DNA of 64,000 nucleotides, taken from contig JAFRPH010000038.1 in assembly GCA_017429205.1 (NCBI GenBank), positions 40,761 through 104,760 of the forward strand, written 5' to 3'. Under the pieces are notes generated by a model. That model was not told where the DNA came from. It searched no databases and worked only from the letters and a program-made list of their open reading frames with translations. The position numbers and the translations under genes were made by a program. The stretch comes from Bacteroidales bacterium. GTDB taxonomy: Bacteria > Bacteroidota > Bacteroidia > Bacteroidales > UBA932. Of the stretch, positions 16,271-32,970 are shown piece after piece. Positions within the stretch are counted from its first letter, which is position 1, and each line of letters begins with the position of its first letter.

Positions 16271-16296
16271 CAATCCGCCCATATTTCCCCCCTTCT

Positions 16297-16330
16297 CCAT
16301 CAAATCAATATGATTTGGTGGATTTTTTAA
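16297..16330 (+). terminator. Rho-independent terminator after mnmA
   Basis: CCATCAAATCA, loop ATA, TGATTTGGTGG, then ATTTTTTAA: an 11-bp stem with one T-G pair and a T-run, 26 nt after the stop. Confidence 0.8.
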
Positions 16331-16350
16331 CAGTTTTTGAAAATTTTTTC

Positions 16351-16358
16351 TAACTTTG
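16351..16358 (+). promoter_or_regulatory. Likely promoter of the SusCD locus
   Basis: TAACTTTG fits TANNTTTG and lies 66 nt before the first ATG. The leader that follows is AT-rich with no Shine-Dalgarno sequence. No clear -33 TTTG lies at 19 nt. It is the best promoter candidate ahead of the cluster. Confidence 0.55.
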
Positions 16359-16424: not shown

Positions 16425-19400
16425 ATGAGAAAATCTGTTAAGTCGATCATTGCGGTTGCGCTCGCTGCGCTCGCCGTGATCGGATGCGCCAAGCAGAGCG
16501 AGCTCGACAAGGTCAGCTCGCGCCTGGATGGCATCGAGAACCGCGTCGGCGTTCTCGAAGAGGCTGTCAAGCAGCTCAATGAGAAGGACATCCCTGGTCT
16601 CCAGGCTCTGGTCCGCGCCATTCAAGACAACATTACCGTCACCGCCGTGGTGGAAACCGAGAGCGGTTACGTGATTTCCTTCTCCGACGGCACCACCGCC
16701 ACCCTCCGCAACGGCAAGGACGGCCAGAACGGCCGCGACGGTGTCGACGGTATCGACGGCATCAATGGAACCAACGGCACCGACGGTACCGACGGCAAGG
16801 ACGGTGTCGACGGCCAGACGCCCGTCATCGGCATCACCCTCGTGGACGGTGTCTATGTCTGGACCGTGAACGGCGCGGTCCTGAAGGACGACGCCGGCAA
16901 GCCCATCCCCGTCACCGGCAACAACGGCAAGGACGGCGAAGACGGTGAGGACGGCGTGGACGGCATCACCCCGCAGTTCGGCATCCTCGACGGCCACTGG
17001 GTGGTCTCCTATGACAATGGCGACACCTGGAAGACCCTCGGCCTCACGAGCGACACCGACTACTCCGCCTACATCGACCCCGACAAGGAGACCGATGACT
17101 ACATCGTCCTTGTGGTCGGCGCGACCGAGGTCCAGATCCCCAAGGAGAAGGCCTTCACCCTCACCTTCACGACCATCGAGAACAATGGTGTCAAGGCCGG
17201 CCAGACCGCGTCCTTCCCCTACACCATCGCCGGTGTCAACGCTTCTGACGAGACTGATGTCGACGTGATCGGCATCGTCGGCGACTGGACGGCCGAGGTC
17301 GTTCCCGCCGACAACGCGTCCGGCGTCCTGAAGGTCACCGCCACCGAGAGCGAGACCGCCAAGGTCACCGTCTATGCAGCGAACCACAAGGGCAAGGCCG
17401 ACATCCGCACCCTCAAGTTCGAGGGCGGCGTCCTCGAGGCCATCATCGAGACCCACGACATCGAATGGGAAGGCGGCGAGCTCGCCCTCACCGTCCGGAC
17501 CAACATGGCCTATGATGTCTATATCCCCCAGGCGGCCCAGGAATGGATCACCGTCGCTCCCACCCGCGTGCGTGAGGACAACCTGACGATCACCGTCGCC
17601 AAGAACGAGACCGGTGCCTACCGCACCGCCACCCTCGAGGTGCTCGATCAGGACTACAACACCGTCAAGGAGATCGAAATCCTCCAGTATGCCAATCCCG
17701 AGGCCGCTACCGACCTCGCTTCCGTCGTCGCCCTCCCGGATGACAAGCCGGTGCAGGTGAACGCCGTGACGGTCGTCGCCGCCTCCAAGGCCAGCACCAT
17801 CGTCACCGACGGCAAGAACTTCTCCTATGTGGCCGGCTACTCCGGCAAGCCGGGCACCGTGATCGACGTCACCGGTGTCAAGAAGACCGACGACCTGGAT
17901 CTCGGCTATGTCGAGGCCACCGAGGTGAAGGAGAACGCCGAGGCCACGCCGGCCGAGGTGGACAAGAAAAAATCCTACTATTATTATGGTTACGGCGCCA
18001 ATGGCTTCACCTACTTCTACACGGCCAACAACGGCTACGTGTCCGAGAATGAGGGCGTGTACTACGTGACCGCGCTCGAGGAGCCCCAGCAGTTCGTGAT
18101 TGAGAATCCGACGCAGGACCTGAGCGCCCTGGTGGGCAAGTTCGTCGCGATGAGCGGCTGGGTCAAGGCCGTCGACTACGAGCATGGCGTGAAGGAGGAC
18201 ATCGTCACGGTCCTGACCGACATCCACGAAATCGTGTTCGCCGAGGAGACCGGCTGGAAGCCGTACTATGGCGGCACGACCACCGACGAGCCCGGCTATC
18301 CCGAGCTGATCGGCAACGAGGTGTCCAACCCGACCGAAGGCAGCTACTACCAGCTTGTCGTTTACCCGGAGGAAGCTGCTGCCGAGTATCCTACCCTGGA
18401 TGATTTCATCGCCGACGCCGCCTACTACACGTCCGACGATCTCCTCTTCAATCTGACCAAATATGGCATGAGCTGGGGCTATGATTATGTTTTCGACGCG
18501 TTTGCGCACGCCGAATCCGCGAAAGATTACTTCAAGGACTTCGGCTACGGCAAGTTCTACCTCCTCGCCGTGGGCCTGGATGCGGAAGGCCGCCTCAGCG
18601 GCAAGTATGCCATGACCGCCTTCGAGAAGGAGAGCCCGTACAAGAAGGCCGCCTACGAAGACTTCCTGGGTGAATGGACCTACACCGGCGCCAGCGGTTC
18701 CGAGGTCTGGACCATCAAGGAGAAGGAAAATGGCAGCACCTACACCATCGAGGGCATCAGCAAGATCCAGCCGGGAGGTGGTGTTTACCCGGAGGCCGTG
18801 TACGATGCCGAGAACGGCACGTTCACCCTCTCCTGCCAGGAGCTGGGCAAGTTCGAGTTCCAGGATTACCACATCACCGACCAGATGACTGCCGTTTATT
18901 ACTATAACGGCAATTACTATGACAACGCCGAGTACATGCTCGACCCGCTCATCTTCACCGCCAATCTCTGCAAGGACGGCACTGTGGAGGTCGTTCCCAG
19001 CAACGATAGCTACGGCCCGCTGGAGGGTCTGACGATCCTTGGCTACGTCGAAGAATTGGAAGATCAATACCTTACCTACAATTCCTCCACCAAACTCCCC
19101 GGAAAGCTCTCCAAGGGTTCTCAGGAGATGGATCCCAACTATGCCAAGTGGCTGGGCACCTGGGAAATCGATCGTCAGCAGATGGCCTTCAACGGAACGG
19201 AATGGGTTTCCAGCGGAGATCCCGTCACCGACAAGTGGACCATTGCAGAGAATTCGGTCAACGAGTCCTTCACCATTACCGGTCTCTATGGCAAGGGCGA
19301 CAATCTCCCCGTGGTTGCCAACTTCGATGCAGCATCCGGCGAAATCTCCGTGGCCACCCAGGACGTCGGCCCCATCCGTTTCCAGGGTGACGACTATGAC

Positions 19401-19850
19401 TGCGAGGCCTATTTATATGGCGGTCTCCTGTATTCCAACGGCAGCAATTACCGGATCTCCGGCAATTACCCGATCTTCACCGCGAAGATGAGCGGAGACA
19501 ATGCTGCGAACCTCGCTCCCGGCACGGTGACAATCGCCTCTCTCAGCCCCGATCCCCTCGCGCTGAATTTCGCCCGCTTCTATGCGGCCGATCCCAAGGA
19601 CGGCAAGTATTATACCTTTGACGACAAGGCCTTGGCCACCCTGCCCAACACGATGCGTCGTGCCAGCACCTCCAGCACCCAGAGCATGGGCAACGCCCCT
19701 GCCGTCCGTGGCGGAGCTTCCGTCATGGCCGTCTCCGGGACGAACGCCAAGAACGGTTCCCTTGCCAAAATCAACGCGCGCAAGCGCGACGCCAAACCCG
19801 CTTCCGCCCGCAAGAGCGGAAAATCCTTCGAGAAAGCCCTCAAGTTCTAA
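16425..19850 (+). CDS. Large surface lipoprotein with coiled coil, collagen-like repeats and two C-terminal FLGxW modules
   Basis: First gene of the SusCD locus, 1141 residues. The lipobox ALAVIGC puts the lipidated Cys at 21. A short coiled coil follows (SELDKVSSRLDGIENRVGVL, about 23-60), then about 12 collagen-like Gly-x-y triplets rich in Asp and Asn (about 99-135), with a second short tract near 170. This N-terminal plan is that of DUF4988 lipoproteins. BACON-like beta domains lie around 330-425. Two modules opening YEDFLGEW (about 744) and YAKWLGTW (about 906) close with LPGKL and LPNTM; the same module recurs in other proteins of this locus. The C-terminus is very basic (ARKRDAKPASARKSGKSF). 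No catalytic motif is visible. It probably projects a ligand-binding head from the cell surface beside SusCD. Confidence 0.85.
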   Translation: MRKSVKSIIAVALAALAVIGCAKQSELDKVSSRLDGIENRVGVLEEAVKQLNEKDIPGLQALVRAIQDNITVTAVVETESGYVISFSDGTTATLRNGKDGQNGRDGVDGIDGINGTNGTDGTDGKDGVDGQTPVIGITLVDGVYVWTVNGAVLKDDAGKPIPVTGNNGKDGEDGEDGVDGITPQFGILDGHWVVSYDNGDTWKTLGLTSDTDYSAYIDPDKETDDYIVLVVGATEVQIPKEKAFTLTFTTIENNGVKAGQTASFPYTIAGVNASDETDVDVIGIVGDWTAEVVPADNASGVLKVTATESETAKVTVYAANHKGKADIRTLKFEGGVLEAIIETHDIEWEGGELALTVRTNMAYDVYIPQAAQEWITVAPTRVREDNLTITVAKNETGAYRTATLEVLDQDYNTVKEIEILQYANPEAATDLASVVALPDDKPVQVNAVTVVAASKASTIVTDGKNFSYVAGYSGKPGTVIDVTGVKKTDDLDLGYVEATEVKENAEATPAEVDKKKSYYYYGYGANGFTYFYTANNGYVSENEGVYYVTALEEPQQFVIENPTQDLSALVGKFVAMSGWVKAVDYEHGVKEDIVTVLTDIHEIVFAEETGWKPYYGGTTTDEPGYPELIGNEVSNPTEGSYYQLVVYPEEAAAEYPTLDDFIADAAYYTSDDLLFNLTKYGMSWGYDYVFDAFAHAESAKDYFKDFGYGKFYLLAVGLDAEGRLSGKYAMTAFEKESPYKKAAYEDFLGEWTYTGASGSEVWTIKEKENGSTYTIEGISKIQPGGGVYPEAVYDAENGTFTLSCQELGKFEFQDYHITDQMTAVYYYNGNYYDNAEYMLDPLIFTANLCKDGTVEVVPSNDSYGPLEGLTILGYVEELEDQYLTYNSSTKLPGKLSKGSQEMDPNYAKWLGTWEIDRQQMAFNGTEWVSSGDPVTDKWTIAENSVNESFTITGLYGKGDNLPVVANFDAASGEISVATQDVGPIRFQGDDYDCEAYLYGGLLYSNGSNYRISGNYPIFTAKMSGDNAANLAPGTVTIASLSPDPLALNFARFYAADPKDGKYYTFDDKALATLPNTMRRASTSSTQSMGNAPAVRGGASVMAVSGTNAKNGSLAKINARKRDAKPASARKSGKSFEKALKF

Positions 19851-19880
19851 GCCTCTCGCTTATACCCTATCGAATTGTTT

Positions 19881-22800
19881 ATGAATAAATTGAGATATAT
19901 TCTCACGCTACTGGCGCTTGCGTTCACGGCGTTGGTCGCACTGGCCCAGAACCGTACGGTCCGGGGCAATGTGACCTCCGCCGCGGACGGGGCCCCGGTC
20001 CCGGGCTGCTACGTGTCCGTCGAGGGCACGAAACTCGGCGGCATCACGGACCTGGACGGTAACTTCGAGATCAAGAACGTTCCCGAAAGCGCCCAGTACG
20101 TCGTCACGTCCTTCATGGGCGCGAAAGATGCCCGTGTCGCGATCACGCCCAACATGAAGATCGTCCTCGAGGACGATGCCGAAGTGCTGGAAGGCGCGGT
20201 CGTGAACGGTATGTACACGGTGGACCGCCGTATGAACACCGGTTCCGCCGTGAAGGTGGATGCCAAGGAAGCGAACATCAGCGGTATGGTGGATATCTCC
20301 CGCTCCCTCGAGGGACGTGCGGCCGGCGTGTCCGTGCAGAACGTCTCCGGTACGTTCGGTACCGCCCCCAAGATCCGCGTCCGCGGCGCCACCTCCATCT
20401 ACGGTTCCTCCAAGCCCCTGTGGGTCGTGGACGGCGTGATCATGGAAGATGTCGTGGACGTGAGCGCGGACGACCTGTCGTCCGGTGACGCCAACACCCT
20501 GATCTCCTCGGCCATCGCCGGCCTTAACTCCGACGATATCGAGAGCTTCGACATCCTCAAGGACGGTTCCGCCACTTCCATCTACGGTGCGCGCGCCATG
20601 GCGGGCGTCATCGTCATCACGACCAAGAAGGGTACCTCCGGATCCAGCAAGATCAGCTACACCGGCGAATACACCTATCGGCTCAAGCCCAGCTACAACA
20701 CCTTCAACATCATGAACTCCCAGGACCAGATGGAAATCTACCAGGAGCTCCAGCAGAAGGGTTACCTGAACTACGCCGAGACGGCCAACGCCAGCAACAG
20801 CGGTATCTACGGCAAGATGTACCAGCTGATCACCCAGTACGACGAGTCCAGCGGCTCCTTCGGCCTCGCGAACACCGAGGCGGCGAGAAACGCCTACCTC
20901 CGCGCCGCCGAGTTCCGCAACACGGACTGGTTCGACATCCTGTTCAACGACACGATCCAGCACAACCACTCGGTGAGCGTTTCCGGCGGTTCCGGCAAGG
21001 GTACCTACTACGCCTCCCTGTCCGCCCTCGGCGATCCGGGCTGGACCAAGCAGAGCTCGGTCAGCCGCTACACCGGCAACCTGAACGTCACCTACAAGCT
21101 CTCCGACAAGCTGACGGCGAACCTCATCAGCAACGCCTCCTACCGCAACCAGCGCGCGCCCGGTACCATCAACAGTGAAATGGACGTGGTCTCCGGCGAG
21201 GTGAAGCGTGACTTCGACATCAACCCGTACTCCTACGCGCTGAACACTTCCCGCGCCCTGGACCCGGACGAGTTCTACACCCGCAACTACGCGAAGTTCA
21301 ACATCCTGCACGAACTCGACAACAACTACATCGACCTGAAGGTCCACGACCTCCGCGTGCAGGGCGAACTGAAGTACAAGCCGTTCGCGCACCTGGACCT
21401 GAGCGCCCTGGCCGCCTACAAGGCCACCACCACCTCCCAGGAGCACTACATCAAGGATGCGGCCAACCAGGCCCTCGCCTACCGCGAGATGTCCACCGCC
21501 TCCATCCGTGACGTCAACCCGTTCCTGTACACGGACCCGGAGAACCCGTACGCCCTGCCGGTGACGGTCCTCCCCGTGGGCGGTATCTACGAGCGTTCGG
21601 ACAACAGCATGGACAGCTGGGACATCCGTACCACGGCCACCTACAACAACACGTTCTTCAACGACCACATCGTGAACCTGTTCGGCGGCGCCGAGGTCAA
21701 CAACATCGACCGCCACAGCATCTGGTTCCGCGGCTGGGGCATGCAGTACGATTTCGGCGAGATCGCCAACTACGACTGGCGCGTGTTCAAGCAGGGTTCC
21801 GAGGAGAACACCCAGTACTTCACGATCTCCAACACCAGCAGCCGCAGCGTCGCGTTCTTCGCGAACGGCACCTATTCCTACAAGGGCCGCTACACCCTCA
21901 ACGGCACCTACCGCTATGAGGGTACGAACGGTCTGGGCAAGGCCCGCACCGCCCGCTGGCTGCCTACTTGGAACGTCTCCGCCGCCTGGAACATGCACGA
22001 GGAGAACTGGATGAAGTCCCTGTATCCGACGATCACCCACCTGAGCCTCAAGGGTTCCTATTCCCTGACCGGCGACCGCCCGAGCGTCACGAACGCGGAA
22101 GTGGTCATCGGTTCCACGAACCCCTGGCGTCCGTTCGCCGACGACAAGGAGTCTTCCCTGTACATCTCCGACATGGCCAACCAGTCCCTCACCTACGAGA
22201 AGAAGCACGAGCTGAACCTCGGTTTCGAGGCCGGTTTCTTCGACAACCGGATCAACCTCACCTTCGACTGGTACAAGCGTAACAACTACGACCTGATCGG
22301 CCCCGTCACGACCGTGTACGGCGTCCGCCTGGGCAATGTCGCGTCGATGGCCTCCAACGGTTTCGAGATCTCCCTGACGACCAAGAACATCCAGACCAAG
22401 GATTTCTCCTGGACGACCAACTTCATCTATTCCCACACGAAAAACCAGGTCACCCAGCTGGAGAGCCAGGTCCGCGCGTTCGACTTGATTTCCGGCACCG
22501 GTTTCGCCTTCGAGGGCTATCCCGTCCGGAGCCTGTTCTCCTACCAGTTCACCGGCCTGAACTCGGAAGGTCTCCCGACGTTCATCAACGAAGCGGGCGA
22601 ACCCACCGTGTCCGACGTGTACTTCCAGGAGCGTGACAAGGACCTCCTGAAGGAGAACCTGCTCTATTCCGGCAGCGTGGATCCCACTGACGTCGGTTCC
22701 CTGGGCAACATCTTCTCCTGGAAGGGCTTCCGGCTCAACGCCTACATCACCTATTCGTTCGGCAACGTGATCCGTCTGGATCCCGTGTTCCGCAGTACGT

Positions 22801-23210
22801 ACGACGACCTCAACTCGATGCCGCGCGAATTCAAGAACCGCTGGACCATCCCCGGTGACGAGGCGAAGACCGACATCCCGGTCATCGCCAGCTACTGGCA
22901 GAACCGCATCTACGCCAACAGCAGCTCGTACCTGAGCTATGCGTACAACGCCTACAACTATTCCGACGCCCGCATCGCCCGCGGCGACTTCGTCCGGCTC
23001 AAGGAGCTTTCCCTCTCCTATGATTTCCCGAAACGGATCGTCGAGAAGATGAAGCTCGGCACCCTCGGTCTCAAGGTCCAGGCGACCAACCTCTTCCTCC
23101 TGTATGCCGACAAGAAGCTGAACGGCCAGGATCCTGAATTCTACAACACCGGCGGTGTGGCTGTTCCGCTCGCGAAGCAGTTCACCTTCACCCTCCGGAT
23201 CGGCCTTTAA
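19881..23210 (+). CDS. SusC/RagA-family TonB-dependent transporter
   Basis: Outer-membrane importer of 1109 residues, the usual SusC size. Translation starts at the ATG at 19881; a TTG codon 6 nt upstream is less likely. A signal peptide ends at ALAQ (about 23). A carboxypeptidase-like domain follows (VRGNVTSAADGAPVPGCYVSVEGTKLGGITDLDG), then the SusC plug with RVRGATSIYGSSKPLWVVDG and the family motif SFDILKDGSATSIYGARA. The barrel ends FTFTLRIGL. It works with the SusD lipoprotein encoded 18 nt downstream, which closes over it as a lid, and with TonB/ExbBD for energy. Because neighbouring genes encode proteases, peptide or glycopeptide is my inferred substrate. Confidence 0.95.
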   Translation: MNKLRYILTLLALAFTALVALAQNRTVRGNVTSAADGAPVPGCYVSVEGTKLGGITDLDGNFEIKNVPESAQYVVTSFMGAKDARVAITPNMKIVLEDDAEVLEGAVVNGMYTVDRRMNTGSAVKVDAKEANISGMVDISRSLEGRAAGVSVQNVSGTFGTAPKIRVRGATSIYGSSKPLWVVDGVIMEDVVDVSADDLSSGDANTLISSAIAGLNSDDIESFDILKDGSATSIYGARAMAGVIVITTKKGTSGSSKISYTGEYTYRLKPSYNTFNIMNSQDQMEIYQELQQKGYLNYAETANASNSGIYGKMYQLITQYDESSGSFGLANTEAARNAYLRAAEFRNTDWFDILFNDTIQHNHSVSVSGGSGKGTYYASLSALGDPGWTKQSSVSRYTGNLNVTYKLSDKLTANLISNASYRNQRAPGTINSEMDVVSGEVKRDFDINPYSYALNTSRALDPDEFYTRNYAKFNILHELDNNYIDLKVHDLRVQGELKYKPFAHLDLSALAAYKATTTSQEHYIKDAANQALAYREMSTASIRDVNPFLYTDPENPYALPVTVLPVGGIYERSDNSMDSWDIRTTATYNNTFFNDHIVNLFGGAEVNNIDRHSIWFRGWGMQYDFGEIANYDWRVFKQGSEENTQYFTISNTSSRSVAFFANGTYSYKGRYTLNGTYRYEGTNGLGKARTARWLPTWNVSAAWNMHEENWMKSLYPTITHLSLKGSYSLTGDRPSVTNAEVVIGSTNPWRPFADDKESSLYISDMANQSLTYEKKHELNLGFEAGFFDNRINLTFDWYKRNNYDLIGPVTTVYGVRLGNVASMASNGFEISLTTKNIQTKDFSWTTNFIYSHTKNQVTQLESQVRAFDLISGTGFAFEGYPVRSLFSYQFTGLNSEGLPTFINEAGEPTVSDVYFQERDKDLLKENLLYSGSVDPTDVGSLGNIFSWKGFRLNAYITYSFGNVIRLDPVFRSTYDDLNSMPREFKNRWTIPGDEAKTDIPVIASYWQNRIYANSSSYLSYAYNAYNYSDARIARGDFVRLKELSLSYDFPKRIVEKMKLGTLGLKVQATNLFLLYADKKLNGQDPEFYNTGGVAVPLAKQFTFTLRIGL

Positions 23211-23228
23211 TGAATGGGAGGAATGACT

Positions 23229-24896
23229 ATGTTGAAAATGAACAACTTACTCAAATCTACCATCGTCGTCATCGCCCTCGTCGGCCTGACGGCCTGCGAC
23301 AAGTTCCTGGACAAGATGCCCGACAACCGGGCCGAGATCAACTCCCCGGAGAAAATCCGCGCGCTGCTGACCTCCGCCTACTCGACCGGAACCTACCTGT
23401 ACTTCAGCGAATACATGTCGGACAACGTGGACAACATGGGTGACGACAACCCCGGAACGAACCGTTCGGTGGACCAGTTCTACACCTGGGCCGACGTCAC
23501 GGAAGTCGGCAACGACAGCCCGAAAAGTTTCTGGGAAAGCGGCTACGAGGCGATCAACCACGCCAACCAGGCCCTCGAGGCGATCGAGAAGCTGGCCGGT
23601 TGCGAAGGCGAACTCTCCGTCTCCGCCATCGAGCAGGCGGGACTGACCGCGGAAATGGCCGAGGCGCTGCTGTGCCGCGCCTACAACCACTTCATGCTGG
23701 TCAATTTCTTCAGCCTGAACTACAACGCAAACACCAGCGACAAGGACCTCGGCGTCCCCTACATCGACCGCGTCCCCGTGGAGCTGAACCCCAAGTATGA
23801 CCGCGGTACGGTCGCGGAGGTCTACGAGAAGATCGACCAGGACCTCCGGATCGCCCTCCGCTATGTCAGCGACAGCTATTATCTGGTCCCCAAGTACCAT
23901 TTCAACGTCAAGGCGGCCTACGCGTTCGCCTGCCGGTTCTACCTCTTCTACGAGAAATGGGACCTGGCGGCCGAATATGCGACCAAGTGCCTGGGTTCCC
24001 AGCCCGCGCAGGTGCTCCGCAACTGGCAGTACCGCAACGGACTGGAGAAGGACATGGACGTGAAGTCCAACGACTACATCAAGTCCTCCTATGACGCGAA
24101 CCTGATGCTGGTCACCGCCTACACCGGCTTCGGCTATTATATGGGCTATCCCGGCATCACGAAGTACTCCCACAACTCCTTCCTGAACTTCACGGAGATG
24201 CACTACGCGCAGAACATCTGGGGCAACACCGAGACCGGTTGGCGGAACGTGTACTCCTGGTTCTGGGAAGCGCCGGAATGGTACAGCGGTTCCACCTTCG
24301 ACCAGCTGGTCTACTGGAAGATCCCGTACCTGTTCGAGTACACCGATCCCGTGGCCCGCATCGGTTACGCCCACGCGGTGTATCCGGCGTTCACCACCGA
24401 CGAAACCCTCCTCAACCGCGCCGAAGCCTACATCATGCTGGGCAGGTATGACGAGGCGGCCGCCGACCTGGACACCTGGACGCACAATCTCATCAAGACG
24501 CAGTACTTCTCCGAGACCCTGACGCCCGAGTTCATCCACGAGTTCTACAAGAACGTCGAGTACTGGACGCCCGAGGTTCCGTCCATCAAGAAGCACCTCC
24601 ACCCGGCCTTCTCCATCGGTGGCGAAGGCGAGCTCCGCGAAAGCATGCTCCAGTGCGTGCTCGGCTTCAAGCGCATCGAGAATGCGGCACAGGGCCTCCG
24701 CTGGCTGGATGTCAAGCGGTACGGCATCGAAATCACCCGCCGCACCCTCGAGCCGGATCCGGCCGCCGGCCAGTACGACGCCGCTTTCAAGATCCTCAAG
24801 GGTGACGTGGACGTGCTGAAGGTCGACGACCCCCGTCGCGCCATGCAAATCCCGCCGGACATCCAGACCGCCGGTATCGCGCCGAATCCCCGTTAA
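23229..24896 (+). CDS. SusD/RagB-family nutrient-binding lipoprotein
   Basis: Surface lipoprotein of 555 residues that binds substrate and caps SusC. I prefer the ATG at 23229 over upstream in-frame ATGs (23214, 23223) because GGGAGG lies 7 nt before it. The lipobox is LVGLTAC. SusD family marks include CDKFLDKMPDNRAEINSPEKI at the mature N-terminus, helical TPR-like segments with AEALLCRAYNHFMLVNFFSLNY, and the C-terminal LLNRAEAYIMLGRYDEAAADL. The sequence is close to RagB-type proteins that partner peptide importers, but that cannot be settled by eye. Confidence 0.93.
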   Translation: MLKMNNLLKSTIVVIALVGLTACDKFLDKMPDNRAEINSPEKIRALLTSAYSTGTYLYFSEYMSDNVDNMGDDNPGTNRSVDQFYTWADVTEVGNDSPKSFWESGYEAINHANQALEAIEKLAGCEGELSVSAIEQAGLTAEMAEALLCRAYNHFMLVNFFSLNYNANTSDKDLGVPYIDRVPVELNPKYDRGTVAEVYEKIDQDLRIALRYVSDSYYLVPKYHFNVKAAYAFACRFYLFYEKWDLAAEYATKCLGSQPAQVLRNWQYRNGLEKDMDVKSNDYIKSSYDANLMLVTAYTGFGYYMGYPGITKYSHNSFLNFTEMHYAQNIWGNTETGWRNVYSWFWEAPEWYSGSTFDQLVYWKIPYLFEYTDPVARIGYAHAVYPAFTTDETLLNRAEAYIMLGRYDEAAADLDTWTHNLIKTQYFSETLTPEFIHEFYKNVEYWTPEVPSIKKHLHPAFSIGGEGELRESMLQCVLGFKRIENAAQGLRWLDVKRYGIEITRRTLEPDPAAGQYDAAFKILKGDVDVLKVDDPRRAMQIPPDIQTAGIAPNPR

Positions 24897-24914
24897 TCTT
24901 TAATGCGGAAAGTT

Positions 24915-25859
24915 ATGAAGAAATTGATATACAGCATCACCATCGTCCTGGCCGCCCTCGCCGCCTCGTCCTGTCAGCGTGACGTGATCGAGCCGGAGAG
25001 CGTGATCAAGGATTCCACGGTGGAAATGAACGACTTCGACCGGTGGCTGGAGGTGAACTTCCTGAAGCCCTACAACATCGAGTTCAAGTACCGCTACGCG
25101 CTGAACGAGTCCGACATGGGTTACTATACGGTCCCGGCCGACGTCAATTCGTCCGTCATCTACGCGCACCTGGTCAAGTACCTGTGCATCGACACGTATG
25201 ACGAGATCGCCGGCGTGTCCTTCACCCGGTCCTACTTCCCCAAGATGTTCTTCCTGATCGGCACCTGGGAGTACCGCAACAACGGCAGCATCGTCCTCGG
25301 CACCGCCGAGGCCGGCAAGAAGATCATGCTCGCCGGCGTGAACGAGCTCCCGCTCGTCTTCCAGTACTACGAAGGCGCCGAGCTGGACGACTACCTGAAC
25401 ACCTATTACATCAAGACCATCCACCACGAGTTCACGCACATCCTGAACCAGACCAAGGAGTTCTCCGACGCGTTCAAGCAGATCACTTCCCCCACCTATG
25501 TCGCGGACGCCTGCTTCGACACGGACCAGTACTGGCGCGGCCGCGGCTACATCACCGCCTACGCCCAGTCCGAGCCTCGCGAGGATTTCGCCGAACTGCT
25601 CTCCGAGTACGTGACGCACAACGCGGCCTGGTGGGACGAGCAGATCTCCGCCGCCTCCAAGGAGACCGCCGAGGTCCGCAAGACCGACCCGTCCGCCCAG
25701 GACGGCGCCACCCTGATCGAGTCCAAGATCGACATCGTGCGCAACTACATGCAGGATTCCTGGAACATCGACATCGACGTGCTCCGGGACATCATCAACC
25801 GCCGCATGGGCGACGTGGTCGCCGGCAAGGTGGATCTCAACACCGTAGAAATTCTGTAG
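24915..25859 (+). CDS. SusCD-associated zinc metallohydrolase lipoprotein (HExxH)
   Basis: Lipoprotein of about 314 residues; an in-frame ATG 12 nt upstream (24903) is also possible. The lipobox LAALAASSC anchors it. The zinc motif is HHEFTHILNQ (HExxH), with a downstream acidic residue in AQSEPREDFAELLSEYV that fits the third ligand position of gluzincin-like enzymes. The layout matches the family described as substrate-import-associated zinc metallohydrolase lipoproteins encoded next to SusC/SusD. It most likely hydrolyses peptide or a related bond in the captured ligand at the cell surface. It is followed by a strong ribosome binding site for the DUF4302 gene. Confidence 0.87.
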   Translation: MKKLIYSITIVLAALAASSCQRDVIEPESVIKDSTVEMNDFDRWLEVNFLKPYNIEFKYRYALNESDMGYYTVPADVNSSVIYAHLVKYLCIDTYDEIAGVSFTRSYFPKMFFLIGTWEYRNNGSIVLGTAEAGKKIMLAGVNELPLVFQYYEGAELDDYLNTYYIKTIHHEFTHILNQTKEFSDAFKQITSPTYVADACFDTDQYWRGRGYITAYAQSEPREDFAELLSEYVTHNAAWWDEQISAASKETAEVRKTDPSAQDGATLIESKIDIVRNYMQDSWNIDIDVLRDIINRRMGDVVAGKVDLNTVEIL

Positions 25860-25863
25860 GAGG
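25858..25863 (+). promoter_or_regulatory. Strong Shine-Dalgarno site (AGGAGG)
   Basis: AGGAGG overlaps the preceding TAG stop and lies 8 nt before the ATG at 25872. This is a canonical site in a phylum where such sites are usually weak or absent. Confidence 0.75.
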
Positions 25864-25871
25864 ACCGAACC

Positions 25872-27155
25872 ATGCGTAAATTGAAACTCATTTCCATCCT
25901 CGCTACCGTCGCCTTCGCGGTCCTGCCTGCCTGCCAGCAGCTGGAGCCCGATGCGTTCGACAAGCCTTCCTCCACCCGCATGTCCGAATTCCTGGAAGAC
26001 ATCCGCACCACCCTCGCCGCCGAACAGTACGGCTGGACGATGGATTACTTCCCGGGATCCAAGTATGCCGGAGTCACTTATGCGCTCAAATTCACCAACC
26101 AGGAGGTGACTGCCTGCCTCGAGACCGCTCCCACGGTTACCGAGACTTCCTCCTATGCCCTGAAGACCGATGACGGCGCCGTCCTGTCGTTCGACACCTA
26201 CAACACGGTGCTCCACGCCTATGCGACGCCGGACCAGAAGAACTATCAGGCGAAGGGCGGTGACTTCGAGTTCGAAATCAGCTCCTTCGACAAGGAGAAG
26301 AAAGAGATCGTCCTCATCGGCAAGCGTTCCCGCAACCACTGCACCCTGCGTCCGCTGACCAAGCCCGCGGAAGAGTATTTCGCCGGGGTCAAGGAGTTCG
26401 AGAACAGCCTCGCCATCCCGGCGGCCGCCGCCACGGTGGACGGAAAGGAGATCGAACTGTATGTGGATTCCGGCAACCGTTCCATCACCATCGGTGAGAA
26501 GGGAGCGGATGAGGCCGAGCAGCAAATCGTCCGCTACATCCTGACCGAGAACACGCTCCGCTTCTCCCAGCCCTTCAGCATCGGGAACGTGCAGTTCGAC
26601 GAATGGACCTACGATGCCCAGAACGGAACCCTGAACGGTTCCGGCGTCTCCTTCGTCAAGTTCATCCCGCCGGGATATGTCACTTTCGAAGAGTATCTGG
26701 GCGACTACACCTTCTACTACAGCAACGGAAACCGCAACTTCAAGGTCTCCCTCGTCGAAGACGAGCCCGGACGCTCCTTCAAGATGAAGGGCTTCTCCAC
26801 CTACTTCGAGCCCGTCCTCACCTTCGACGGCGGACGCGGACGCCTCAACTGGATCAAGCAGACCATCGGCGGTTCCGGCAGCCTGGAGTACATCCTCGCT
26901 CCTTGGGACTCCAACGCCGGCTACCTGACCTGGATGGAGGGTGTCGGCCTGGTCGGTTCGGTCGAGGACAACTCCGTGCCGGATTTCGTCATCACCTTCG
27001 CAGACAACGGCGTCTGGGAGGACTACACGGCCAACGCCTGGCTGCTCTGGTCGATGAACGGCGACTCCAGCGCGGGCGCCGTGTCCAGCTGGACGACGGC
27101 TACTGGCAGCTACCAGGTTCCCGGTGCGCTTTCCATGAAAAAGATTGCCGAGTAA
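25872..27155 (+). CDS. DUF4302-type lipoprotein
   Basis: Lipoprotein of 427 residues with lipobox AVLPAC. The N-terminal half begins PSSTRMSEFLEDIRTTLAAEQYGWTM, a pattern I associate with DUF4302 proteins encoded beside SusCD and the HExxH metallohydrolase. The middle is beta-rich (KGGDFEFEISSFDKEKKEIV). At about 270 there is a FEEYLGDYTF motif resembling the FLGTW modules of its two large neighbours. No catalytic residues are recognisable, so I take it as an accessory binding protein of the uptake system. A perfect AGGAGG site lies upstream and another lies between it and the next gene. Confidence 0.8.
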   Translation: MRKLKLISILATVAFAVLPACQQLEPDAFDKPSSTRMSEFLEDIRTTLAAEQYGWTMDYFPGSKYAGVTYALKFTNQEVTACLETAPTVTETSSYALKTDDGAVLSFDTYNTVLHAYATPDQKNYQAKGGDFEFEISSFDKEKKEIVLIGKRSRNHCTLRPLTKPAEEYFAGVKEFENSLAIPAAAATVDGKEIELYVDSGNRSITIGEKGADEAEQQIVRYILTENTLRFSQPFSIGNVQFDEWTYDAQNGTLNGSGVSFVKFIPPGYVTFEEYLGDYTFYYSNGNRNFKVSLVEDEPGRSFKMKGFSTYFEPVLTFDGGRGRLNWIKQTIGGSGSLEYILAPWDSNAGYLTWMEGVGLVGSVEDNSVPDFVITFADNGVWEDYTANAWLLWSMNGDSSAGAVSSWTTATGSYQVPGALSMKKIAE

Positions 27156-27161
27156 AGGAGG
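27156..27161 (+). promoter_or_regulatory. Strong Shine-Dalgarno site (AGGAGG)
   Basis: AGGAGG starts one base after the preceding TAA stop and lies 8 nt before the ATG at 27170. It decides that start over the long open frame extending upstream. Confidence 0.75.
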
Positions 27162-27169
27162 AAACGCGT

Positions 27170-29296
27170 ATGAAAAAGATTTTTAGCATCTTACTGACTC
27201 TGATGGCAGCGCTGGGCGTCTTCTCCTGCCAAATCGAGAAAGACGCGGACGGCTCCCAGTATCTGGCGGGACCGGCCCTGGAGATCGTCTCCAAGGAAGT
27301 GGTCTTCGCCCCCCAGGGAGGCAGCGGCTCCATCGTGATCAACACCCGGGAAACCCTCTCCGCCTCGGCGGACCGTTCCTGGGCCACCGTGACTGTCGCG
27401 GGCAACCGCGTCACCGTCACCGTCGACCGGAACGAGAGCCTGGAATCGCGGTACGCCACGATCAAGCTCGCCGCCGGCGGCGCCACGGCCGAGGTTCAGG
27501 CCCAGCAGTTCGGCATCAACTCCGCCCACGCCTGGGATGACACCTACACCTTCCCGTACGGCGGCGGCGAGCTCGACCTGCCGTACGGCGAGAACGGGAC
27601 CGTCTGGGTGGACGTCTCCGAGGCGAACTGGATTTCGGCCCTGGTCGACGAAGAGAATCACCTGATCCACTTCACCGTGGCCAAGAGCATCTACAACTAC
27701 GAGCGCGTGGGCCACGTGACCGTGACCATCGGTGACGACTACACCCGCGAACTCACCTTCATCCAGCAGAAGAACCCCGCCGGTCTCAACCCGGGCGAGG
27801 AAGAACCTGTCGAATTCACGGTCCAGCCCGCCTGGACGCCCAAGTACATCCAGCCGACCGATCCGAACGCCCCGGTGTCCACGGTTGGCGTGGATGTGGC
27901 CGAAGGCCAGAGCGGCGGCCGCTACTTCATCCAGGTCGTTCCCCAGGCCGACTTCAACGCGGCCGGCGCGGACGAACAGATCTTCCTCAACCGCAACGCG
28001 GCGACGTGGGCCGCAGCCTCCCCGAGGCTGTTCCGCGCCACCTCCACGCTGGAGATCGACAAGCTGGAGAACGGCAGCTACCGGGTCTACGCCATCGGTG
28101 TCGACAACGACAACAAGGTCAACCACACCTATGCGGTGGCCACTTTCAACGTGACGAAGGTCCTCTCCCCTTACGAGAAGTTCCTCGGCACGTGGTCCAT
28201 CCAGCGCGGCACCTTTGACGACGTGTGGACGATCGTCGAGAAAGAGCCCGGCAAGAGTTATACGATCACAGGTCTGGAAGGAGGCTCCCAAGCCTTCCTG
28301 GGCGAGTACGAGATTACCGCCGAGTTCGACTCCTCGGACAACAGCTTCTCGATCAAGACCCATCCCAACCTCGGCCAGTATACCTTCACGAACTCCGGCG
28401 AATCCCATACGGTGACGATGCGCCTGACGGGTCTGGTCACCTACAACGGCACGCCGAACGTCACGGTGGGCGGCAACTACACCGTCTGCAAGGTCGCCAT
28501 TACCGGCGACGGCGAATTCACGGTCACGGCCGGTCCCGACCTGTCCCTGCAGGGCGCCGGCGGCACCTTCCCGCTGACGGGTATGAACTTGAATGGTCTG
28601 GAAAGCTCCAGCGCCTGGACCTTCGACAACGGCACGCCGTACAATTTCCCGTTCAAGGCGACGCAGCTCACCCAGGGCAGCGGCTCCGACCCGGGTGACG
28701 ATCCCGGCGACGATCCGGGCAATGATGCGTACACCAAGTGGCTCGGCACCTGGAACGTCGGTTCCGGCCGGACGGTCACCATCGCGCCCGAAGAGCAAGG
28801 CAAGAGCTATCGGGTGACCGATTCCGGTTTCGGTGGTTTCGAGTATGTGACCTTGCTGGACAGCAGCACCGGCGAGATGCTCTTCCACTTGCAGATGGTG
28901 GACGAGTATGACATCGATGAGTACTACTTCATCGGCGTTGACGGGAATTCTCTCCGCTACGGCGATGAAGGCCAGGATTACCTGCTCGCACGCGGTGTCC
29001 TTTCGGCCAACGGTTCGTCGATGACGATCTCCCCGGTCAAGTACATGTCCGACGGCGAGGAGGTCCAGGCGGCCGCCGTGACGATTCTGGACTATCAGAC
29101 GGAGGACGGAAACGGATACGACAAAGGCTGGTACGGTTTGAACGGCATTGACGATTTTACGCTTCCCGCCACCCTCACGAAGGCCTCTTCTTCCGCGCTG
29201 TCCGTTGCCCGGACGAACTACTATGACATGAATCTGAACCGGTTCGTCCCTGCCGCCCGCGCGGCGGCGCCGACCAAGTCCCGGAGGATTCAGTAA
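27170..29296 (+). CDS. BACON-type surface lipoprotein with two FLGTW modules
   Basis: Lipoprotein of 708 residues; the Shine-Dalgarno site and signal peptide (MKKIFSILLTLMAALGVFSC) fix the start. Two BACON-like beta domains occupy about 35-110 and 115-200, with SWATVTVAGNRVTVTVDRN and NWISALVDEENHLIHFTV. A further beta domain follows. Two modules open at YEKFLGTW (about 335) and YTKWLGTW (about 520), separated by the acidic linker DPGDDPGDDPGND. The last ends FTLPATLTKASSS, matching the module ends in the first lipoprotein of the locus. The C-terminus is short and basic (AAPTKSRRIQ). BACON domains usually act as spacers or carbohydrate/mucin-contacting modules; no enzyme motif is visible. Confidence 0.82.
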   Translation: MKKIFSILLTLMAALGVFSCQIEKDADGSQYLAGPALEIVSKEVVFAPQGGSGSIVINTRETLSASADRSWATVTVAGNRVTVTVDRNESLESRYATIKLAAGGATAEVQAQQFGINSAHAWDDTYTFPYGGGELDLPYGENGTVWVDVSEANWISALVDEENHLIHFTVAKSIYNYERVGHVTVTIGDDYTRELTFIQQKNPAGLNPGEEEPVEFTVQPAWTPKYIQPTDPNAPVSTVGVDVAEGQSGGRYFIQVVPQADFNAAGADEQIFLNRNAATWAAASPRLFRATSTLEIDKLENGSYRVYAIGVDNDNKVNHTYAVATFNVTKVLSPYEKFLGTWSIQRGTFDDVWTIVEKEPGKSYTITGLEGGSQAFLGEYEITAEFDSSDNSFSIKTHPNLGQYTFTNSGESHTVTMRLTGLVTYNGTPNVTVGGNYTVCKVAITGDGEFTVTAGPDLSLQGAGGTFPLTGMNLNGLESSSAWTFDNGTPYNFPFKATQLTQGSGSDPGDDPGDDPGNDAYTKWLGTWNVGSGRTVTIAPEEQGKSYRVTDSGFGGFEYVTLLDSSTGEMLFHLQMVDEYDIDEYYFIGVDGNSLRYGDEGQDYLLARGVLSANGSSMTISPVKYMSDGEEVQAAAVTILDYQTEDGNGYDKGWYGLNGIDDFTLPATLTKASSSALSVARTNYYDMNLNRFVPAARAAAPTKSRRIQ

Positions 29297-29308
29297 CGCT
29301 TACAAGTC

Positions 29309-29344
29309 AAGAGGGACGTTTCTATGAAATGTCCCTCTTCTTTT
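29309..29344 (+). terminator. Rho-independent terminator or attenuator
   Basis: AAGAGGGAC (29309-29317) pairs with GTCCCTCTT (29331-29339), followed by CTTTTC. It separates the SusCD operon from the S8 protease gene but ends only about 10 nt before that gene's ATG, so partial read-through would feed the protease. Confidence 0.75.
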
Positions 29345-29353
29345 CACGATTGA

Positions 29354-31966
29354 ATGAAACTGAAACTGCTTGTATTCCCTGTCCTGCTGACGGCACTCGT
29401 CTCCTGCGTGCGGGAAGCCCCAGTCACCCCGGAGACGAAGCCGGAAGCGGGCCAGGTAACTGATTCCGAACAAGCACCTTCCTACGTGAAGGTGCTTTTC
29501 AGCGAAGAGATGTGCGACCTCGTCGAGGAAGACCTTTCCCTCGGACAGGTCCGTACGCGTTCGGAAGGCCTCAACGGGCTGGTGGACGAGCTGGGCATCG
29601 AATCGATGGAACGGCTCTTCCCCTTCGCCGGCGAGTTCGAACCCCGGACGCGGAAGGAGGGCCTGCACCGCTGGTACAAGGTCAGCTACGCCGAGGGCGT
29701 GCCCGCCACGCGGGCCACGCGCGCGTTCGAATCCCTTCCCGGCGTGGAAATGGTCGAGGAGCCCCTCAAGGCCTCCCTCACGACCAATGACAAGTACTGG
29801 GGGGACATGTGGGGACTCAACAACACCCGGTATCCCGGCAAGGACGTCAACGTCCAGGAAGTCTGGGAGAACTATTCGGTCGGCAATCCGGACGTGGTCG
29901 TAGCCGTCATCGACGGCGGCATCGACCTGAACCATCCCGACCTGGCGTGGAACTGCCTCCCTTCGGGCCACAAGAGCTACGTGCCCGGGGCTGCGAACGT
30001 CGTCGGACACGACCACGGGACGCACGTCGCCGGCACGATCGCCGCGGTGAGCAACAACGGCATCGGCGTGGCCGGCATCGCCGGCGGCAATTACGCCGAA
30101 GGTCGCCGGGGCGTCAGCCTCCTCTCCCAGCAGTGCTTCTACACGGTCGGCACCGGCGCCAACGCCCGGGACCGGAGCGGCGATTTCGAGACGGCCATCA
30201 AGGAGGCCGCGGACAAGGGGGCCCTGATCTCCTCCAACAGCTGGGGGTATAACTTCGATGCGGACGACGACGGGGTAATCTCCAACGCGGAACTGGCGTC
30301 CGCCCGCTCCGCACACCAGAATGTCCAGTACTACTCGATCGCGCGCGCCATCGACTACTTCGTCAAGTACGCGGGCTGCGACAACGACGGCAACCAGCTT
30401 CCGGGCAGCCTGATGAAGGGCGGCCTGGTCGTGTTCGCCGCCGGCAACGAGAACATCCCCTATGGCTGCCCGGCCAACTACGAGCCCTGCCTCGCCGTCG
30501 GCGCCACGACGGTCTCCGGAAGCCGGGCCAGCTTCTCCAACTATGGAGAGTGGGTGGACCTCTGCGCTCCCGGCCAAAACATCATCAGCACGCATCCCAA
30601 CAGCTCCTACATCTCCTATTCGGGAACGTCCATGGCCTGCCCGCACGTCACGGGCGTGGCCGCCCTGGTCCTGTCCTACTTCGGCGGACAAGGGTTCACG
30701 GTCGATGACCTGAAATCCCGCCTGCTCGAGGGCGCCAAAGACATCGGTCTTTCGTCCGGCAGCCGGCCGGTCGGGTCCCTCGTGGACGCCATGGGCGCCT
30801 TCATGGCCCATGACAGCGGAACCCCCGACCCCGTCGCGGACTTCACGGTCGAGCCCATCGGGCACAACCTCCGCCTGGACTTCCAGGGCGGTGGCGGCAC
30901 CTACGGCTACATGGCCCTGGCGGCCAAGAGCGAAGAGGCCCTCCGGAAAACGCGCCTGTCGATGCTGGACACCGGCATCGAGTTCGCCCACCTGGTCATC
31001 GGCGACGTGGAAGCGCCGGTCGCTCCCCGCAGCATCGAGCTGCTGAGCCTGGAGCCCGACACGGACTACTACGTGTCCATCGCCGCCTACAGCTACGGCC
31101 GCCGCTATTCCGACCTGGCCCCGATCAAAAAGGTCCACACCGATCGCAACGGCAAGCCGACGATCGAGACCGATCCGGCGGAAACCTTCGTGTTCCGCCA
31201 GTTCGAGGAGGTGGACATTCCGTTCACGATCCTCGATCCGGACCGGGACACCATCGCGGTGGACTTCCAGACCAACGGACGCGCCACGCTCAAGGCCGAG
31301 ATGGACGGAAAATGGCATTTCCGCCTGATCTGCCAGGCCGTCCGCGGCCCGGCGAGCTTCCAGGCGACCCTCGTCGCTTCCGACCGGTTCGGCGAGCGCG
31401 CGCTGCGCTCCTTCAAGTATTCCGTCCTGGAGAACGTGGAGCCGGTCCTCTCCCGCGAAATCGCGCCCATCGCGCTGAACGCCGTGGGACAGAGCGTGGA
31501 CATCGACCTCTCCCAGCATTTCACGGACGAGGACGGAGAGCCGCTGGACTACCGGGTCAACAGCCTGGCTGCCAGCACGGTCGCCGCCGAGCTCGTGGAC
31601 GGGAACAAAATGCGCATCACCGCCCGCGCCTTCGGGCTCGGGGAGGTGCGCGCCGCCGTCTTCGACGCGATGGGCGCCACCGCGAAGTGCGACATCCCGG
31701 TCCTAGTCCGCCCGGCCGGCGAGAAAGTGACCGTGCTGGAAGGCAATTTGTTCACGGACAAGCTGACCATCCTGACGGCCGAACAAGCCACGCAGACTAC
31801 TGTGCGGCTCGTCTCGGCGTCGGGCACCGTGATCGCGTCGGCCTCCGGCGAGTACAGCGCCTTCAATCCGGTCGTCCTGGATACCGGCAAAGTCGCCCCC
31901 GGACTCTACACGCTGTCCGTAGACATCGCCGGCGACGTGACCCGCATGACCCTTGTAAAGAAGTAA
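29354..31966 (+). CDS. Subtilisin-like (S8) serine protease lipoprotein with T9SS-like tail
   Basis: Secreted protease of 870 residues. The signal ends in the lipobox LTALVSC. An inhibitor-like propeptide covers about 40-150. The S8 catalytic domain has Asp187 (VIDGGID), His221 (HGTHVAGT) and Ser426 (GTSMACPHVTG), all present. Fibronectin- and cadherin-like beta domains follow (about 490-780). The last about 75 residues (from VTVLEGNLF to PGLYTLSVDIAGDVTRMTLVKK-type strands) resemble a type IX secretion sorting domain of the PGxYxL class. Having both a lipobox and such a tail is odd. Its position after the SusCD genes suggests that it digests protein so that the transporter can import the peptides. 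It is followed 1 nt later by a PorV/PorQ-like gene. Confidence 0.9.
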   Translation: MKLKLLVFPVLLTALVSCVREAPVTPETKPEAGQVTDSEQAPSYVKVLFSEEMCDLVEEDLSLGQVRTRSEGLNGLVDELGIESMERLFPFAGEFEPRTRKEGLHRWYKVSYAEGVPATRATRAFESLPGVEMVEEPLKASLTTNDKYWGDMWGLNNTRYPGKDVNVQEVWENYSVGNPDVVVAVIDGGIDLNHPDLAWNCLPSGHKSYVPGAANVVGHDHGTHVAGTIAAVSNNGIGVAGIAGGNYAEGRRGVSLLSQQCFYTVGTGANARDRSGDFETAIKEAADKGALISSNSWGYNFDADDDGVISNAELASARSAHQNVQYYSIARAIDYFVKYAGCDNDGNQLPGSLMKGGLVVFAAGNENIPYGCPANYEPCLAVGATTVSGSRASFSNYGEWVDLCAPGQNIISTHPNSSYISYSGTSMACPHVTGVAALVLSYFGGQGFTVDDLKSRLLEGAKDIGLSSGSRPVGSLVDAMGAFMAHDSGTPDPVADFTVEPIGHNLRLDFQGGGGTYGYMALAAKSEEALRKTRLSMLDTGIEFAHLVIGDVEAPVAPRSIELLSLEPDTDYYVSIAAYSYGRRYSDLAPIKKVHTDRNGKPTIETDPAETFVFRQFEEVDIPFTILDPDRDTIAVDFQTNGRATLKAEMDGKWHFRLICQAVRGPASFQATLVASDRFGERALRSFKYSVLENVEPVLSREIAPIALNAVGQSVDIDLSQHFTDEDGEPLDYRVNSLAASTVAAELVDGNKMRITARAFGLGEVRAAVFDAMGATAKCDIPVLVRPAGEKVTVLEGNLFTDKLTILTAEQATQTTVRLVSASGTVIASASGEYSAFNPVVLDTGKVAPGLYTLSVDIAGDVTRMTLVKK

Positions 31967-31967
31967 G

Positions 31968-32888
31968 ATGATGAAGAGATCCGTCTTGTCCCTTTTCCTC
32001 GCCGGCATCCTGTGCCTGACCGCCCTCCCTGCGGCCGCCCAGGACGCTGCCGGCGCGAATGAAGCGATGGGATCGCTTCGTGTCGACCGCGACCCGGTCC
32101 TCCTCTCGATGGCGGGCGCCGGTTTCGCGATGACTTCTTCCAACCAGGCCTACGCCGCCTTCGGCAATCCGGCCGCGGCCGCCTTCTCGCCCAAAAAGCT
32201 CGAGGCAGGCGTCTCCTACGGCTCCTGGGCGCCCAAGTACGCGGCGGGCAGCCAGATTTCCGCTGGCGTGACCGGCCACGTGAAGAAAAGCGTGGCGCTC
32301 TCCCTCGGATTCTCCCGCACGGGTTATCCGGGCCTCGATTTCGAGCCCGCCTCCGCCTTCAAGCCTTCGGATCTCGTGATCCGGGCGGGCGTGGGGTTCG
32401 CGGTCTCGGAGTCCTTCGGCATCGGCTTCACCGCGGGCTATGCGAAGGAGGCGCTCCTGTCGGACTACAGCCTTTCAGCCTTCAGCGTTTCCGCCCTGGC
32501 GCAGTACCGCGTCGCGGGCCTGAACCTGGCGGGCGGCATCGTCCACCTGGGCGGCAAGGTCGCCTCCGCCTATCCCCTGCCCTCCTCCGCCAAACTGGCG
32601 GCGGACTACAGCTTCGAATTCGGGAACAGCAACCTGCACGTCGCGCTCGACGGGGACTACTACTTCAGCGGCAACTATTCCGTGGCGCTGGGCCTGAACG
32701 CAGGCATCGGCGGCATCGGGTTCGTCCGGGGCGGCTACCGCCTCGCCAGCGCGAACGCCGCCATCCCTTCGGGCCTGGGCCTGGGCGCCGGCCTCGCCTG
32801 GCACGGCATCTCCCTGGACGTGTCCTTCGTGACCGCTTCCGAAACGGTCGGCGGCAGCTGGATGGCGGGACTGGGCTACCGGTTCTGA
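31968..32888 (+). CDS. PorV/PorQ-like outer-membrane beta-barrel protein
   Basis: Barrel protein of 306 residues with a signal peptide ending ALPAAAQ. The segment RVDRDPVLLSMAGAGFAMTSSNQAYAAFGNPAAAAF matches the family pattern of PorV/PorQ (a mature N-terminus with a GxG-A-x-A-x-A run and a conserved NPA). The rest is alternating amphipathic strands ending YRF. PorV recycles cargo in type IX secretion and PorQ has a related role. Other members of this barrel family have no known function. The gene starts 1 nt after the S8 protease stop, so the two are co-expressed, and the protease carries a sorting-domain-like tail. Confidence 0.78.
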   Translation: MMKRSVLSLFLAGILCLTALPAAAQDAAGANEAMGSLRVDRDPVLLSMAGAGFAMTSSNQAYAAFGNPAAAAFSPKKLEAGVSYGSWAPKYAAGSQISAGVTGHVKKSVALSLGFSRTGYPGLDFEPASAFKPSDLVIRAGVGFAVSESFGIGFTAGYAKEALLSDYSLSAFSVSALAQYRVAGLNLAGGIVHLGGKVASAYPLPSSAKLAADYSFEFGNSNLHVALDGDYYFSGNYSVALGLNAGIGGIGFVRGGYRLASANAAIPSGLGLGAGLAWHGISLDVSFVTASETVGGSWMAGLGYRF

Positions 32889-32910
32889 TCCGCTCCCCTC
32901 TTGCATGATG

Positions 32911-32949
32911 AAGGCGGCCCCGGGTTTTCCGGAGCCGCCTTTCGGTTTT
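32911..32949 (+). terminator. Rho-independent terminator ending the protease cluster
   Basis: AAGGCGGC-C-CCGG, loop GTTTT, CCGG-A-GCCGCCTT, then TCGGTTTTAC: a 12-bp stem with one internal mismatch, 22 nt after the stop. Confidence 0.8.
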
Positions 32950-32970
32950 ACTTAACAGTGATTCTCCGCG

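Follow-up and report, generated by a model that had tools for sequence, protein, structure and literature searches.

A locus of eight forward-strand genes (positions 16425-32888) in a 64,000-nucleotide stretch of a Bacteroidales genome (UBA932; GenBank assembly GCA_017429205.1, contig JAFRPH010000038.1, positions 40,761 to 104,760; here called the window) probably encodes a SusCD system for foraging protein or glycoprotein at the cell surface, in which a substrate held by lipoproteins would be cut by a zinc hydrolase (Mx1) and an S8 subtilase and imported by SusCD, with the subtilase docked on a PorV-like barrel. Protein foraging by gut Bacteroidota is far less well known than glycan foraging. 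An earlier note on this DNA had read the locus as an undescribed surface machine that binds, cuts and imports protein, built from a SusC/SusD pair, an HExxH metallohydrolase lipoprotein, an S8 protease, a PorV/PorQ-like barrel and three binding lipoproteins. All eight genes are present as described, on one strand between mnmA (upstream) and an isochorismatase-family gene (downstream), with intergenic gaps of, in order, 30, 18, 6, 12, 14, 57 and 1 nt. Pfam and NCBIfam profile scans, from which all domain assignments of the locus proteins derive, likewise agreed with the note in matching no glycoside hydrolase, polysaccharide lyase, sulfatase or sensor in the eight locus proteins or in ten further window proteins (DUF4249, cytidine deaminase, MnmA, isochorismatase, ATP-grasp, TsaD, an FAD protein, a periplasmic binding protein and two without matches), so that the glycan enzyme of a classical carbohydrate-active enzyme (CAZyme) polysaccharide utilisation locus (PUL) is absent from both sets. 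The observation was right and its broad protein-foraging reading is plausible: the SusCD is CAZyme-free and protease-bearing, and related loci carry C10 and S41 peptidases, while the restriction to protein is loosened by a Bacteroides thetaiotaomicron locus of the same annotated order, which makes a glycoprotein substrate possible.

The import core of the locus belongs to a known type. The TIGR04056 SusC adjoins a SusD-like lipoprotein that matches PF14322, identifying the pair as a SusCD transporter, with SusD_RagB (PF07980) slightly under its cut-off (21.4 versus 23.1). Mx1, which adjoins this pair and scores above the curated cut-off of TIGR04549, places the locus among SusCD-linked metallohydrolase loci and carries its HExxH motif as HEFTH from residue 175 (25425-25439). 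Matches to TIGR04549 were found in 36 of 149 nearest-family genomes (34 above cut-off), 11 of 40 nearest-genus genomes and 16 of 25 genomes reached via named loci, including Bacteroides, Phocaeicola, Paraprevotella and Flavobacterium. Across 65 Mx1 loci plus the window (66 in all, some stretches being cut by contig ends), SusC-SusD-Mx1-DUF4302 is contiguous in 54, from Flavobacterium to Bacteroides; the other 12 comprise one cut at a contig end, three with split frames and eight whose Mx1 gene is followed by one that could not be assigned to DUF4302. HExxH is kept in 65 of the 66 Mx1 proteins. Mx1 has two solved relatives, 4l7a and 9urd; the latter shows 95% identity to a copy from Bacteroides xylanisolvens that is located in such a locus. 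Since NCBI already calls this family "substrate import-associated", the core is a named and widespread locus type and not the new system that had been proposed. The recurring gene order thus covers these four genes and not S8, which occurs in four of the 66 stretches (the window, L034, L036 and L038), all from the window or its nearest genus. S8 and PorV are thus a cassette of the nearest genus, outside the conserved core.

This S8-PorV pair, found in bacteria whose relatives have no detectable translocon of the type IX secretion system (T9SS), is the unusual part of the locus. The catalytic triad of the window subtilase is intact (D187, H221, S426 by alignment). Peptidase_S8_N occurs in 28 of 37 nearest-genus genomes, in up to about six copies per genome (the genome nearest to the window, G001, shares 25% of its words with it), and 34 stretches were taken as a chosen part of these matches; the D, H and S residues are kept in all 41 alignable subtilases. 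These take two forms, one bearing a C-terminal tail that ends in Lys plus one residue (n = 29) and one short (n = 12). A PorV-like gene lies downstream of 28 of the 29 tail-bearing subtilases (adjacent in 27, with one gene between in L255) and of none of the 12 short ones (Fisher p 1.6e-9, a value that ignores shared descent); outside this count stand L247_S8_0 (another ending), L250 (a masked stretch) and L273, where PorV is just upstream of a tail-bearing S8. Conversely, PorV-family matches with E <1e-9 numbered 14, in 10 of 14 nearest-genus genomes searched, and all 14 stood beside a tail-bearing S8 (three weaker matches, E 4e-5 to 9e-4, were not counted). The window protein is predicted to have the PorV fold. 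Of the 29 tails, a set that includes the nearly identical ones of the window and L034, 26 match TIGR04183, the sorting domain of T9SS type A cargo, at E 0.001 (best E 2e-12); YPNP or FPNP occurs in 20, and the penultimate Lys in every one. In the genome searches, TIGR04183 falls short of E 0.001 in G001 and G208 despite the S8-PorV there. A lipobox pattern is present in 22 of the 29 tail-bearing subtilases, unlike classical T9SS cargo. For the Flavobacterium johnsoniae translocon structures, an almost invariant Lys near the C terminus is described as the one possibly conserved PorV contact (PMC10994853), and we infer that the penultimate Lys of the S8 tails occupies that position. The short subtilases (L241-L248, L251, L252, L271) have a conserved NG(G)WL-like C terminus instead (GWL in 11 of 12; the twelfth, partial, ends in GGL), possibly a sorting or docking motif.

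These features suggest how the locus may work. Six of the eight products (LP1, SusD, Mx1, DUF4302, BACON and S8) are predicted lipoproteins, because lipoprotein signal peptides were recognised by eye at their N-termini. The substrate, a protein or glycoprotein, would be bound by LP1 and the DUF4302 and BACON lipoproteins and cut near SusCD by Mx1 and S8, and the resulting peptides or glycopeptides would be imported with TonB-derived energy. The predicted model of the DUF4302-DUF4987 protein has a pLDDT of 90, and a whole-chain fold search of the PDB gave no usable match (probability <=0.47 and TM <=0.14 among the 50 matches listed). In LP1, collagen-like Gly repeats score below cut-off. The subtilase would reach the surface as a lipoprotein and stay at the outer membrane by docking its type A-like tail on its own adjacent PorV-like barrel, without a T9SS. 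There are reported precedents in which a FadL-family barrel holds a surface protein, namely PorP-like proteins whose cargo has a type B C-terminal domain (CTD; PMC9143113) and BamG with the lipoprotein BamH (PMC12611786).

Several observations weigh against foraging of protein by a docked subtilase. The window PorV scores 69.9 bits on NF033709, under the family cut-off of 90, and the window tail is degenerate, lacking YPNP and scoring 19.2 bits on TIGR04183 against a cut-off of 23. One tail-bearing S8 (L266) has no PorV, and three of 13 tail matches in 14 nearest-genus genomes have no S8 or PorV match nearby (G196:C53, G042:C19 and G042:C23, all short frames). A hairpin ahead of S8 weakens the case for a single transcript. 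NCBI calls Mx1 a metallohydrolase, and its target could be other than peptide bonds. Some other Mx1 loci have neighbours with a link to sugars: a GH3 at L068, genes for galactokinase, GntR and MFS proteins at L206, and CBM_4_9 matches at L207 and, below cut-off, at L199. In B. thetaiotaomicron, PUL52, to which the zinc peptidase BT3237 belongs, is listed either as unknown or as linked to pectin, and BT3958-3961 are listed as induced by mucin O-glycans or core 1 (PMC5238430, PMC13088901).

This last listing makes a glycan signal, and therefore a glycoprotein substrate, possible for the window locus by analogy. We nevertheless consider it unlikely that the locus is a mucin-type glycoprotein PUL in which O-glycans are both signal and carbon source, the proteases free glycopeptides for SusCD, and deglycosylation falls to enzymes encoded elsewhere, as proposed for BT4240-50. 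The precedent of BT4244-M60L, a protease with a SusCD for which glycopeptide import has been proposed (PMC11992087), speaks for it, as do the core 1 listing, the annotation of BT3960 and BT3961 as 'putative calpain-like protease' and DUF4302, and the sugar-linked genes near L068, L206 and L207. The window locus, however, has no CAZyme; GH3 is the single glycoside hydrolase among 50 of 85 accessory representatives (>=150 aa; the largest cluster, of 114 proteins, was left out) scanned around the 66 Mx1 loci; and BT3960 is likened to Mx1 by annotation and order only. The earlier note had named induction only by a polysaccharide as the finding that would speak against protein uptake, and the induction of BT3958-3961, a run of the same annotated order, touches on this. 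Plain protein and mucin-like glycoprotein are both candidate substrates for the window system. In Labilibaculum (L206), the GntR, galactokinase and MFS genes stand in one run with a divergent SusC-SusD-Mx1, a hint of sugar use, whereas Mx1 locus L208 has a POT-family (PTR2) transporter nearby, some members of that family being peptide carriers. According to an iron study, BT3958-59 and BT3961 are lower under iron lack.

In the nearest genus, the S8-PorV cassette is found repeatedly, following SusCD loci of several kinds. Of 21 gene-called S8-PorV loci, 18 have a same-strand SusC gene upstream, as do the window, L034, L036 and L038; L273 has no SusC match within 12 kb. Two of the 21 are of the Mx1 type (L264 and L267); both are complete counterparts of the window locus, except that LP1 comes after PorV rather than at the upstream end; L264 is 78% (SusC), 69% (Mx1) and 51% (S8) identical to the window. 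Up to four genes ahead of S8, the 21 loci encode 33 unlabelled same-strand proteins longer than 250 aa; a scan of 20 of them identified two C10 and one S41 peptidase, Calx-beta, fn3 and Big domains, SusD, and a sigma-54 regulator, DsbD and serine dehydratase, the last three from the SusC-less loci L254 and L272; none of the 20 was a glycoside hydrolase. The C10 (streptopain-type) and S41 peptidases lie inside other SusCD-S8-PorV loci, at L249:10259-11932 and at L268:7726-9159 and 5831-7375. Across the 21 loci, distances between tails correlate with those between PorV proteins at r 0.62, compared with 0.50 for tail-less S8 and PorV, 0.43 for tail-less S8 and SusC, 0.34 for PorV and SusC and 0.28 for tail and SusC (values that ignore shared descent); because the first exceeds the correlations with SusC, tail and PorV seem to travel together more than either does with SusC.

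This modularity bears on whether S8-PorV is an independent surface-protease cassette beside an import locus, with S8 proteolysis uncoupled from import, an arrangement compatible with docking that we regard as doubtful. It would fit the tail-PorV correlation, the presence of the cassette behind many SusCD types and the lack of S8 in 62 of the 66 Mx1 stretches, some of which are cut. It would also fit the strong hairpin at 29309-29339, which parts the first six genes from S8-PorV, so that the pair may be a separately regulated unit; hairpins ahead of S8, folded without a shuffle control, are also present in L239, L240, L249, L257 and L258. Set against this, the cassette is attached to SusCD loci time and again (18 of 21), the distance from the preceding gene to the S8 start is -8 to 19 nt in 12 of the 21, and distances between tail-less subtilases correlate with those between SusC proteins too. 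Upstream of LP1, TAACTTTG is the sole TAnnTTTG-type motif in 225 bases (its frequency across the window predicts 0.05), TAnnTTTG being the Bacteroidota -7 promoter consensus. No regulator was matched at the window locus, and those of related loci differ, with sigma and FecR genes at some. Regulation also varies among Mx1-S8-PorV loci, because L038 (G042, a second Mx1 locus, from the nearest genus) has a hybrid two-component sensor, together with a BACON protein, upstream.

The S8 tail and its partner barrel look borrowed from a secretion system that was not found in the nearest relatives. SprA (the translocon) and GldM (the motor), which together mark a T9SS, were undetected in all 23 nearest-genus genomes searched (completeness 72-100%; the genome of the window organism itself lies outside this sample), and GldK gave sub-cut-off matches or none in 25 nearest-genus genomes, while G008 and G160 gave strong matches. 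PorU had no match above cut-off in 26 genomes, a result that says little because G008, meant as its positive control, gave none either. It is very improbable that tail and PorV serve a divergent or undetected T9SS, a reading that could appeal to the sampling of relatives instead of the window organism, to the incompleteness of several genomes and to the PorU search, and that sits badly with the SprA, GldM and GldK results and with the lipobox of most tail-bearing subtilases. G160 (the genome of L091, titled Bacteroides cellulosilyticus DSM 14838; contigs C57 and C62) contains full-length SprA, GldM and GldK matches; to our knowledge, T9SS genes are not expected in Bacteroides.

More tentatively, and with somewhat less confidence than in surface foraging as such, a gut Bacteroidales genus without a T9SS translocon may re-use the type A tail and PorV to dock lipoprotein proteases, one PorV each, that are plugged into many SusCD loci, giving protein-utilisation loci analogous to CAZyme PULs. 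If so, the recurring SusCD-plus-subtilase cassette would be a sequence signature for such loci, and a PorV-tail pair without SprA would both provide a surface-anchoring route outside the T9SS and set the holding of cargo by PorV apart from its other role, the collection of cargo from the translocon. Among the open-licence literature matches listed (titles and abstract openings), none described SusCD-S8-PorV loci or PorV-tail pairs without a T9SS.

Table 1. Genes and transcription signals of the locus, in window coordinates.
Feature	Position	Strand	Evidence
Terminator-like hairpin of upstream mnmA	16296..16322	+	12-pair stem, T run; z -3.7 for 16285-16335
TAACTTTG, -7 promoter element match (TAnnTTTG)	16351..16358	+	without clear -33 element
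LP1, large lipoprotein, candidate substrate-binding	16425..19850	+	DUF4988, BACON, weak DUF4987; lipobox AVIGC by eye
SusC-type TonB-dependent transporter	19881..23210	+	TIGR04056 609 bits (cut-off 368)
SusD-type lipoprotein lid	23229..24896	+	PF14322 E 4.5e-37; lipobox GLTAC by eye
Mx1, Peptidase_Mx1/TIGR04549 zinc metallohydrolase lipoprotein	24903..25859	+	PF15890 E 2.9e-78; TIGR04549 308 bits (cut-off 75)
DUF4302-DUF4987 lipoprotein, candidate binding protein	25872..27155	+	DUF4302 E 5.8e-48 plus DUF4987
BACON multi-domain lipoprotein, candidate binding protein	27170..29296	+	BACON match
Hairpin between BACON lipoprotein and S8, terminator or attenuator	29309..29339	+	14-pair stem; -21.4 kcal/mol for 64-nt 29290-29353, z -3.8
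S8 subtilase lipoprotein with Peptidase_S8_N	29354..31966	+	Peptidase_S8 E 2.4e-42; lipobox ALVSC
T9SS type A-like C-terminal tail of S8, residues 802-870	31757..31963	+	TIGR04183 19.2 bits, E 9e-4; penultimate Lys
PorV-like 14-strand outer-membrane barrel	31968..32888	+	NF033709 69.9 bits (cut-off 90)
Terminator-like hairpin at locus end	32910..32942	+	fold z -4.2 for 32905-32952

The start of the BACON lipoprotein in Table 1 corrects a longer open reading frame that began at 26603. Elsewhere in the window (5972-12759), a PF01497 periplasmic binding protein is followed by a TonB-dependent-receptor-like frame, recognised by eye, and a DUF4249 lipoprotein; these genes may form a second uptake locus. 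Around the other Mx1 loci, an M43 pappalysin-type peptidase lies two genes downstream of DUF4302 in Bacteroides salyersiae (L192:4751-6889), linking another protease to the Mx1 core; it is a better candidate than the M16 (L052), C1 (L072) and M50 (L060) peptidases, which are probably mere neighbours. Large surface-type proteins with T9SS-like tails and LRR, GLUG and Cleaved_Adhesin domains occur near Mx1 loci L199, L186 and L200 (Bacteroides nordii), the tail scoring above the Pfam cut-off in L199 only.

Among known systems, the TIGR04549 loci of Bacteroides, Phocaeicola, Paraprevotella and Flavobacterium share the SusC-SusD-Mx1-DUF4302 order, and the SusC of most Bacteroides and Phocaeicola loci is 58-67% identical to that of the window. 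They differ in having no S8 or PorV match within the stretches read; several also have a longer SusC and sigma/anti-sigma-type genes upstream, and their accessory genes vary. The closest solved SusC/SusD by sequence, 8ypt/8ypu, are 95% identical to B. fragilis genomes and are presumably ButCD, the ubiquitin-homologue receptor of that species. Identity with ButCD was considered for this reason and rejected, as none of 80 ButCD-type loci (the best 80 of 135 relatives) had Mx1 or DUF4302, and their SusC is 26-30% identical to that of the window. Peptide cargo is reported for RagAB of Porphyromonas gingivalis and for BT2263-2264 (PMC11817032, PMC11992087). RagA, however, scores only 178 bits with the window SusC. 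We know of no protease cassette adjoining RagAB or BT2263-2264. The mucin glycoprotein PUL BT4240-50 resembles the window in combining a surface protease with SusCD and proposed glycopeptide import (PMC11992087), and differs in having an M60 protease instead of S8 and Mx1, together with GH2 and GH109. A similar run in B. thetaiotaomicron is PUL71, where public annotation gives SusC (BT3958), SusD (BT3959), BT3960, which is called a protease and is enriched in outer-membrane vesicles, and DUF4302 (BT3961) in the same order, a match by annotation and order only; it differs in being listed as responsive to mucin O-glycan core 1. For the S8-PorV pair, the likeness in each case is a FadL-family barrel that binds or holds its partner: T9SS PorV with a type A CTD (PMC10994853), PorP-like proteins with cargo bearing a type B CTD (PMC9143113), and BamG with the surface lipoprotein BamH (PMC12611786). 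The window differs from all three in that its cargo is a lipoprotein subtilase, with the barrel gene adjacent and SprA undetected in the nearest genus.

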